The notes below the pieces were generated by a model, which worked only from the letters and a program-made list of their open reading frames with translations, ran no database searches and was not told the DNA's origin. DNA of 64,000 nucleotides from contig NZ_JALEKL010000006.1 of assembly GCF_022768985.1 (NCBI RefSeq), positions 1 to 64,000 of the forward strand, in the 5' to 3' direction. The position numbers were made by a program, and so were the translations under genes. Every line of letters begins with the position of its first letter. Within the stretch, counting starts at the first letter, position 1. This document shows, piece after piece, positions 920 to 29,794 of the stretch. Source of the DNA: Methanosphaera sp. Its GTDB lineage: Archaea; Methanobacteriota; Methanobacteria; Methanobacteriales; Methanobacteriaceae.

Positions 920-1760
920 ACACGATTAAATTGTAAACCAGTCAATCAAAGCAGATTGTAATAATTTACACACTGTTTCTATAAGTTATAGAAGTATAAT
1001 AAGTAAACAAAATAAAGGATTATAAATAATTCATAATTATTTATTGGCAGTGTATATTAATATATACTCTTTACCACATCATGTATTGTTATACATTCGC
1101 TTAACGTACATCAAACTAAATCATTTAGCTCTGCAGTTGCATGAACTAAACTTTACTTTAGTTTTCATAATTCAATAAAATTCATATTGCTACACTTGGA
1201 AAAACAATCAATCATAACAAAACAACTTAATGTTTTTGTTCATGTGTCTCGCTTTTTGTAGCACATACTATTACCATCACATCATCCTTAACAATTTAAT
1301 TAGAAAATATTGCATAATATTTTATGTTGAAATTAACCAAATTTTTACACAAAAAAAATTACTATATAATATATAGAGTAATGAGATTTTCATGGAATTT
1401 TTTTCCTATATAATATATAGAGATATGAAATATGCCAAAAATTTTTGAAAATTATCTTTGTTTTTGTTGGAATTTTTTATGAAAATTATGTGAGTTTAGA
1501 AAATTTGTTATTTTTTTGAACATTTTTCAGTTTTTTATTGTTTTTTATGAAAATGTATATAATTTGAAATTTTCTATTTTTTCTACTATTTTTTTAGATT
1601 TTATTACAATTTTATTTTTTGTATTTTGTATTAATTTTTTTATTTTTTTATAATTTTTAGTAATACTTTTGATACCTTTATATATTACTTTTATATTAAC
1701 TATTAGTAATAAGATATATAATAAAAGTAATACATTTTTAATGATTGTGGGGCTAAAAGT
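920..1760. other. rRNA leader and AT-rich divergent spacer
   Basis: This stretch lies between the 16S 5' end and the GNAT gene. Positions 920 to about 1385 are probably the transcribed pre-rRNA leader; one arm of the pre-16S processing stem should lie here, but its partner is outside the window. Positions 1423-1760 are extremely AT-rich and hold the promoter of the plus-strand GNAT gene. I see no protein gene; the one long minus-strand frame here is low-complexity Ile/Lys/Phe and overlaps the GNAT gene. Confidence 0.6.
1362..1422 (-). promoter_or_regulatory. Duplicated TATA-like elements, probable tandem rRNA promoters
   Basis: The 17-bp sequence ctatataatatatagag occurs exactly twice, at 1362-1378 and 1406-1422, 44 bp apart. 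Read on the minus strand each is a long TATA-type element. The only minus-strand gene downstream is the 16S rRNA. Archaeal transcription starts about 25 bp after the TATA box, so starts near 1340 and 1384 would give a leader of about 420-465 nucleotides. Tandem promoters are common for rRNA operons. The role here is inferred. Confidence 0.55.
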
Positions 1761-26134: not shown

Positions 26135-26294
26135 TTTTCCTAATAACTCCTAAATTATAAATATAAATTATCAAAAATGATACTATACAATACTATTAGT
26201 TAGAAGTAATTATAATAAATAACTTATAAAAATAAGAAAAAATATCATAATAACAACAAATACCTAGAAATAACAAATGGGGTTGTGGATAGAA

Positions 26295-27584
26295 ATGGGA
26301 AATATCATACTTAAAAACTGTAAAATGATAGATAATGAAGTTGTAAATATCATAGTAGATGATGGAAAAATAAGTTCAATTAAAAAAACATTAAAAACAT
26401 CAGATACAACAACAGATAACATAATAGATATAAAAGAAAACATCATAATACCAGGACTTATAGATACACATGTACACCTAAGAGATCCAGGACTAACACA
26501 TAAAGAAACATGGACTACAGGATCACAAGCAGCAGCAAATGGTGGATATACAACAATTGTAGATATGCCAAATACAATACCAAAAACAGATACATATAAG
26601 GCATTTAAAGATAAACAAGAAAATGCATTAAAACATTCATATACAGACTTTGCACTAAATGCTGGTGTAAAAACAAAAAAAGATGTAGATGAAATACTAA
26701 CACTAAAACCTGCAGCATATAAAATATTTATGGACTTACATGACAACAGTCAGCTTGATGAAATGTTTAGCTACATTCAAGATACAAATAAGCCACTACT
26801 ACTTCACTGTGAAGATAAAACACTAGTTGACTATAACATAAAAACACTAAGTGCAGATGCTAAAAATGATATGAAACTTACAACATACTCCTATGCAAGA
26901 AGTGCAATGGCAGAATTCATAGCAGTAAATCGTGCAATAGAACTTGCAAAGAAATATAACATACAACTTCACATCTGTCATCTAAGTTGTCGTGACACAT
27001 TTGAACTAGTAAATGAGGCAAAAAGTAAGATTAACATAACAGTTGAAGCAACACCACATCATCTATTTTTAGATAATGAAACATACAACACATATGGAAT
27101 GCGTGCAAAAACAAATCCTCCACTTCGTGATAAAAATCATAACATAACACTAACTAATTTACCTGATATAGATTCAATAGGAACAGATCATGCACCACAC
27201 ACACTAGAGGAAAAAGATAAAAATACATGGACTACAGCATCAGGAATACCAGGACTTGAAGTAACACTTAAACTTCTACTAACAGAGGTAAATAATGGAA
27301 ATATCACACTAAAAGATGTAGTTGAAAAGACAAGTACAAATCCTGCAAAGATATTTAACATGAAAAATAAGGGAGAAATAAAAACAGGATATGATGCAGA
27401 CTTCACTATAGTAGATATGAAAAAATCTGGAAAAATAGATGTAGATGAATTTAAAACAATGGGAAAATACACACCATTTGAAAATAGAGAATATACTGGA
27501 TCAAATATTATGACAATAAATCGTGGAAACATAATAGCAGATATGCAAGATGTCTATAAATATGATGCAAAATACATCTACTAA
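26295..27584 (+). CDS. pyrC: Dihydroorotase
   Basis: About 429 residues. Metal ligands are visible in DTHVHLRDPG (about 56-65), the carboxylated lysine region PAAYKIFMDLH, HCED, HICHLS and GTDHAPH (about 296-302). It closes carbamoyl-aspartate to dihydroorotate in pyrimidine synthesis. I chose the ATG at 26295; the upstream in-frame ATG at 26277 adds six residues with no clear ribosome site. It stands alone with a clear C-rich plus T-run terminator. Confidence 0.95.
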   Translation: MGNIILKNCKMIDNEVVNIIVDDGKISSIKKTLKTSDTTTDNIIDIKENIIIPGLIDTHVHLRDPGLTHKETWTTGSQAAANGGYTTIVDMPNTIPKTDTYKAFKDKQENALKHSYTDFALNAGVKTKKDVDEILTLKPAAYKIFMDLHDNSQLDEMFSYIQDTNKPLLLHCEDKTLVDYNIKTLSADAKNDMKLTTYSYARSAMAEFIAVNRAIELAKKYNIQLHICHLSCRDTFELVNEAKSKINITVEATPHHLFLDNETYNTYGMRAKTNPPLRDKNHNITLTNLPDIDSIGTDHAPHTLEEKDKNTWTTASGIPGLEVTLKLLLTEVNNGNITLKDVVEKTSTNPAKIFNMKNKGEIKTGYDADFTIVDMKKSGKIDVDEFKTMGKYTPFENREYTGSNIMTINRGNIIADMQDVYKYDAKYIY

Positions 27585-27600
27585 AACTAGAACTTAAATT

Positions 27601-27625
27601 CCCCACCCTACATAACACCCTTTTT
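27601..27625 (+). terminator. C-rich plus T-tract terminator of pyrC
   Basis: CCCCACCCTA, then CATAACACCC and five T residues, about 15 bases after the pyrC stop codon. No strong stem is seen. It matches the window-wide signature. Confidence 0.5.
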
Positions 27626-27843
27626 ACTATTTATCTTTTTTTTATTTAGTAGATTAAGTATTATTATAAAGTAGAAATTATTTTAGAAAGAATTTTATTA
27701 AAAATTAGAAAATTAAATATTGAAAAATTAGTTTTAAAATTTATTTAGAAAAAGAATTATTTTTATTTTTAAAAAAATGTTTTAAAGAAAAAAGAGTATG
27801 AATAGATTTTATCTAATTCATAAATCATGTGATCTATAACTAC

Positions 27844-27946
27844 GTAAAGTTTCTATATTAGATAAGCAGTGCAGACCGATTCCTTGTCTACCTGAGGTAA
27901 TACAGGTCCGTATCTTGCCTACTTTTACTTATAAAAATCTTTTTTT
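27844..27946 (+). ncRNA. Candidate structured RNA with a pseudoknot
   Basis: A locally GC-rich island in AT-rich spacer. On the plus strand: closing stem GTAAAG (27844-27849) with CTTTTAC (27922-27928, one bulge); helix AGATAAG (27860-27866) with CTTGTCT (27883-27889, one T-G pair); hairpin ACCTG (27890-27894) with CAGGT (27903-27907); and its loop AGGTAA (27895-27900) can pair with TTGCCT (27915-27920), an H-type pseudoknot. A T7 tract at 27940-27946 may end it. G-U pairs fit only the plus strand. No known family is recognised; it could be an RNA gene or an mRNA 3' element. Confidence 0.45.
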
Positions 27947-28132
27947 GTATACTAAATGAATTAAACCTGTCAGATCATAAGTATGTCGTAAGATTTAATG
28001 CCATATTAATATATGAAACAACTAAGTTTCACGTAATAATATTTCATAGTCATTACTATTAAATGTAACCTAATATTACTCTTTGTTTTTCTAAAGCATT
28101 TTTGAATTTATAACTTATTACAGTAACTCAAC

Positions 28133-29790
<1,658 letters not shown>

Positions 29791-29794
<4 letters not shown>

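Follow-up and report, generated by a model that had tools for sequence, protein, structure and literature searches.

Biological methane is the product of methyl-coenzyme M reductase, one of the proteins that methanogens contain in the greatest amounts. Methanosphaera stadtmanae, the type species of its genus, is in culture. The genus Methanosphaera has the mrt isoenzyme only (PMC6120340). In methanogens, archaeal SECIS elements are hairpins in the 3' UTRs of selenoprotein mRNAs (PMC11881835, PMC9622424), and termination at U-tracts is established (PMC8716108). In other Methanobacteriaceae (L069-L073, L076-L080, L083, L085, L087, L088), we observed a short stem after mcrA, which is followed by a U-run and which recurs in many genera. 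This stem often includes the stop codon (TAGGTGT...ACACCTA), which is then part of a terminator-like stem. A search of the literature, limited to open-access papers, yielded no report of the mrtA 3' element described here.

The DNA analysed here is a stretch of 64,000 nt from Methanosphaera sp. (contig NZ_JALEKL010000006.1), which as a whole is referred to as the window. The interval 27844-27946 is intergenic and separates two convergent genes:

26277-27584, plus strand: pyrC, the convergent neighbour (open reading frame)
28133-29794, minus strand: mrtA, alpha subunit of methyl-coenzyme M reductase II (open reading frame of 553 amino acids), last gene of the mrt operon and host gene of the element

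Because a T-rich tract lies 3' of the pyrC stop codon (about 27618-27652), the pyrC transcript probably ends ahead of the element. The window and six homologous loci were compared with Rfam 15 (4227 families). Nothing scored above the gathering cut-off at the element, and below it there were only chance-level matches (E 2-5.8 at the hairpin), which agrees with the statement of an earlier sequence-only reading that no known RNA family fits. On comparative grounds, the element appears to be a previously uncatalogued, genus-specific structured RNA.

The sequence-only reading had proposed a compact H-type pseudoknot on the plus strand, convergent to the mrt operon. The GC-richer island in AT-rich intergenic DNA on which it was based is present, and so are all of its letters, namely ACCTG/CAGGT with the loop AGGTAATA, the downstream TTGCCT and the T7 at 27940-27946. 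Folding of the plus-strand RNA from 27830 to 27960 gave -19.0 kcal/mol vs a shuffled mean of -18.9 (z -0.03); for 27862-27925, z was -1.26. On the minus strand, 131 nt gave z -2.4 and 64 nt gave z -3.1, the latter a fold that none of 200 shuffles equalled.

A DNA search of 100 related genomes returned two clear matches, both from the same genus (2.7e-10 and 2.8e-5) and both directly behind mrtA. A first covariance model of the minus-strand hairpin was built from the window and these two matches. It found exactly one copy in each of 17 of the 20 genomes that make up our sample of the genus, many of them fragmentary (E 1.5e-7 to 3.6e-19); 14 of the 17 copies had not been used in building it. The three-sequence model had zero matches in 119 further genomes of the family, a search of 151 genomes of the order and 152 of the phylum with a 17-sequence model added no further copy, and no copy was present in 132 non-genus genomes of the phylum. 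With a strict pattern, ten loci were found in GTDB contigs, nine titled Methanosphaera and one uncultured Methanobacteriaceae. The pattern had no match in viral contigs, which speaks against a viral origin, and one copy per genome does not suit a mobile or repeated element. All 17 copies are on the mrtA strand, 119-136 nt behind the mrtA stop codon (211 nt in the window). In the remaining 16 genomes, the alpha subunits upstream of the element are 90-94% identical to MrtA. pyrC lies on the far side in convergent orientation in 15 of the 17 loci; in the 2 loci without a pyrC match, the available DNA stops shortly past the element. Missing conservation in related genomes had been named in advance as an outcome that would speak against the sequence-only reading, and on this point it held.

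The comparison defines a hairpin that we call P5:

27863-27924, minus strand: P5, conserved hairpin of 62 nt, 5' AAGTAGGCAAGATACGGACCTGTATTACCTCAGGTAGACAAGGAATCGGTCTGCACTGCTTA, as judged by fold z, covariance model, covariation and G-U/A-C cells

In the alignment of the 17 copies (A3), which was fitted to the structure of the covariance model, 91.1% of the P5 cells pair, and pairing falls to 32-42% when the partner is slid by 1-3 columns. Two-sided changes occur at 15 of the 24 pairs (38 cells), and 0 of 500 shuffles reach any of five measures, where the shuffle controls, like the permutations, do not fully correct for shared ancestry. The initial MAFFT alignment of three sequences, which is free of structural information, already contained two-sided changes at 5 pairs (2 of 500 shuffles). 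Columns 21 and 41 are seen as C-G, U-A and A-U, three adjacent pairs (7-55, 8-54 and 9-53) are altered together in one copy (L049), and the outer stem covaries. Compensatory base changes beyond shuffled controls are thus found on one strand. Among the homologues, the strand-specific mismatches on the mrtA-sense strand amount to 42 G-U cells and 1 A-C cell; because of this ratio, the comparison of sequences settles that P5 is an RNA element of the minus strand, and the wobble pairs that had been read as support for the plus strand favour the opposite one. A peptide-coding function is disfavoured by insertions of 1-2 nt in the window and in one relative (L036), which stand amid conserved letters and argue against a reading frame.

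The same 17 copies separate the two helices: of the 306 cells that make up the 18 core pairs of the minus-strand helix, 305 are paired (99.7%), whereas the plus-strand hairpin retains 44 of 85 pair cells (52%) and its loop-tail helix 80 of 102 (78%). We therefore give hardly any credence to a plus-strand pseudoknot RNA that senses a ligand or is antisense to mrtA, even though its pairs exist in the single sequence of the window; neither its fold relative to shuffles nor its wobble pairs nor its conservation speaks for it. What stands of the sequence-only reading is a real island with a structured RNA between pyrC and mrtA that concerns the mrtA 3' end. The strand was wrong, as the RNA follows mrtA on its sense strand, and only the tip of the element had been seen: a long bulged hairpin at the end of a larger domain.

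Six unpaired adenines interrupt P5:

27870-27915, minus strand: six invariant bulged adenines, at 27915, 27911 and 27901 in the 5' arm and at 27884, 27880 and 27870 in the 3' arm

They correspond to columns 10, 14, 24, 42, 46 and 56 of A3 and are A in 17 of 17 rows. The two arms of P5 are near-repeats of each other (AGRUACGRYCNGYA, 9-12 of 14 positions identical), and the bulged adenines are placed with dyad (two-fold) symmetry. In the three rows that we compared with permuted helices, the symmetry of the arms had P <0.0001, P 0.0035 and P 0.014. The symmetry is a fact of the sequence; the bulged-adenine hairpin as the site of a dimeric protein is putative.

In the relatives, P5 tips a longer arm (P3-P4-P5), which stands beside an AU-rich hairpin (P2), and all of these are enclosed by a closing stem (P1) to give a domain of about 250-330 nt. 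In each of the 17 copies, the 300-nt stretch behind mrtA is more stably folded than its shuffled counterparts (z -2.1 to -5.6). In the window, the remaining parts of the domain are as follows:

28077-28102, minus strand: 5' arm of P1, the closing stem, about 30 nt past the mrtA stop codon (from duplex energy in the window)
27931-27942, minus strand: 5' arm of P4, AAAGATTTTTAT, pairs with 27846-27858 in the minimum-energy fold
27846-27858, minus strand: 3' arm of P4, ATATAGAAACTTT (minimum-energy fold)
27774-27798, minus strand: 3' arm of P1, overlaps the start of the U-rich tract
27771-27777, minus strand: U7 tract at the end of the element, candidate terminator of the mrt operon

P1 joins a stretch 20-40 nt past the mrtA stop codon of the relatives with the 3' end of the domain. 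The mean duplex energy across 15 relatives is -16.1 kcal/mol for two arms of one species and -10.6 kcal/mol for arms combined across species (permutation P <5e-5). The P1 duplex of the window, which has lost the conserved flanking letters and retained P1, reaches -20.8 vs -9.8 +/- 2.4 kcal/mol for shuffled sequences (0 of 500). P4 is part of the consensus fold of 15 relatives; its co-evolution was not significant (P 0.07). The 5' strand of P3, UUUCCAAGUA, has two conserved candidate 3' partners, UUUUACUGGGAA and UACUUGGGAAAC (L033, L034, L036-L049). The proximal one, UUUUACUGGGAA, is found in all relatives, is almost invariant and does not covary (P 0.76), and the distal one, UACUUGGGAAAC, shows weak co-evolution (P 0.0002). 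P3 is possibly a nested stem, a site of alternative pairing or folds, or a pseudoknot. The first run of at least 9 U in 11 nt is located 259-281 nt past the mrtA stop codon in 12 of the 17 copies, directly behind P1, and at 340 nt in the window. The U7 tract is probably the transcription terminator of the mrt operon.

Three genomes of the genus had no match. Two of them (G002 and G019) have no mrtA in the assembly at a stated completeness of 91-97%, and the missing gene is probably an assembly gap at the operon. The third (G016) has mrtA and the long 3' arm and lacks the conserved apex. Its 3' UTR behind mrtA (L052, about 1050-1530, minus strand) has a long arm with a different apex and a U-rich end, and also a weak model match of 28 nt (19 bits). 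In a tree of MrtA, G016 is the first of the genus to branch off and stands outside all carriers (85/95 support); the window and G017 form one group (96/95). From this tree, the conserved apex would have been gained after the split of G016 or lost in G016. Since G016 has mrtA and the long 3' arm without the conserved apex, the conserved hairpin is, on the genomes compared, not indispensable.

Several known classes were considered and set aside. The single RF00373 match of the genome, i.e. its archaeal RNase P RNA, is on another contig (C4), and the sole tRNA of the 64-kb window is located at 2462-2546. A riboswitch would be expected upstream of the gene body that it controls, and does not fit an element that follows the operon's last gene in 17 of 17 genomes, with a convergent pyrC facing it in 15.

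Four explanations of the minus-strand element were weighed against each other, the least probable of which is a DNA operator, i.e. two quasi-palindromic copies of AGRTACGRYCNGYA bound by a transcription factor. The arms of the hairpin are indeed direct repeats, each quasi-palindromic, and in the seven genomes searched the element has two copies of the 14-mer in five and one copy in another (G007). Yet outside the element the 14-mer occurs in these seven genomes only at one unrelated site (in G000), so that a regulon served by this repeat unit can be dismissed. Moreover, two convergent 3' ends flank the site, and the helix covaries, both at columns 21/41 and in the outer stem, and keeps G-U but not A-C; we thus regard an operator as very improbable. 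An elaborate transcription terminator, in which P1 and the U-tract end transcription and the remainder is filler, would be in line with the first U-run behind P1 in Methanosphaera and with the short hairpin and U-run that related genera often have directly at the mcrA stop. But filler would neither preserve the six bulged adenines and the nearly identical arms of the core throughout all 17 copies nor compensate changes in the P5 stem, and termination as the only function is therefore improbable.

It is possible, though we hold this only tentatively, that the element is a non-coding RNA gene in its own right, transcribed from a promoter located between it and mrtA, and that its RNA acts in trans as an antisense RNA or a stable ribonucleoprotein. 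Such an RNA is predicted to have about 200-220 nt, to start near GAAGUUUUCC (conserved GAAGTTTTCC block; GGAGTTTTCC) and to end at the shared U-tract. A TATA-like TTTATATA is present in 14 of 15 relatives, with TTATATA in the other one (L041), 34-36 nt before a conserved TTTYCC. The sequence from box to start is variable, and archaeal TATA spacing would place the start at a conserved G/A-AG. Strongly conserved bulged letters would also suit an RNA that works in trans or in a ribonucleoprotein. The TTTATATA/TTATATA box stands about 80-90 nt before the hairpin, inside the mrtA 3' UTR (L033, L034, L036-L049). On the other hand, the box is also within hairpin P2 of an AT-rich genome, and the window has no exact box, yet has kept P1. 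As the only source of the element, an independent gene is further opposed by P1, since this stem co-evolves, extends to a stretch upstream of the box and needs read-through RNA.

The explanation that we favour, with about even confidence, is a genus-specific structured domain of the mrt operon 3' UTR on the mrtA-sense strand, which probably binds a protein or protects the mRNA. From the alignments, both P5 and P1 co-vary, and they are found in a single copy per genome, always just after mrtA. The operon transcript would read through the domain and stop at the U-tract behind P1, so that every mrt mRNA would end in the folded domain. Less certainly, the domain might shield the mrt mRNA from 3'-to-5' decay, the hairpin with its six adenines might be bound by an RNA-binding protein that is dimeric or has two sites, and this protein might control how stable the mRNA for the sole methyl-coenzyme M reductase is, or its yield. 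The 3' UTR element may in addition accumulate as a separate RNA, and read-through mRNA and independent RNA may coexist. It is a rather doubtful, more specific proposal that a homodimeric protein (or a metabolite-responsive factor) binds the dyad hairpin and determines how much methyl-coenzyme M reductase is made, in a manner confined to Methanosphaera; we know of no report of such a layer of control by a regulatory RNA for this enzyme. That a common gut genus has a large conserved RNA fold on the mRNA of just this key enzyme suggests post-transcriptional control or an unusual way of mRNA stabilisation.

In comparison with known systems, the 3' UTR domain resembles archaeal SECIS elements in that a methanogen mRNA carries a conserved, structured hairpin in its 3' UTR. 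It differs from them in its host gene, as mrtA is a continuous frame of 553 codons with no in-frame UGA, and there was no SECIS match in Rfam. The likeness could thus at most be an analogy, as a protein-binding site in a 3' UTR. With archaeal U-tract terminators and the stems at the mcrA stop codon, the domain shares its position at the 3' end of a methyl-coenzyme M reductase operon and the order of a stem followed by U. Whereas the mcrA stems of the related genera are short and lie at or over the stop codon, the stem in Methanosphaera closes a domain of 250-330 nt with a conserved arm. Finally, if the RNA of the element were separate or released, it might act in the manner of archaeal small RNAs such as sRNA162 of Methanosarcina (PMC3510493), but unlike sRNA162 the element never occurs away from the mrtA 3' end in the genomes that carry it.
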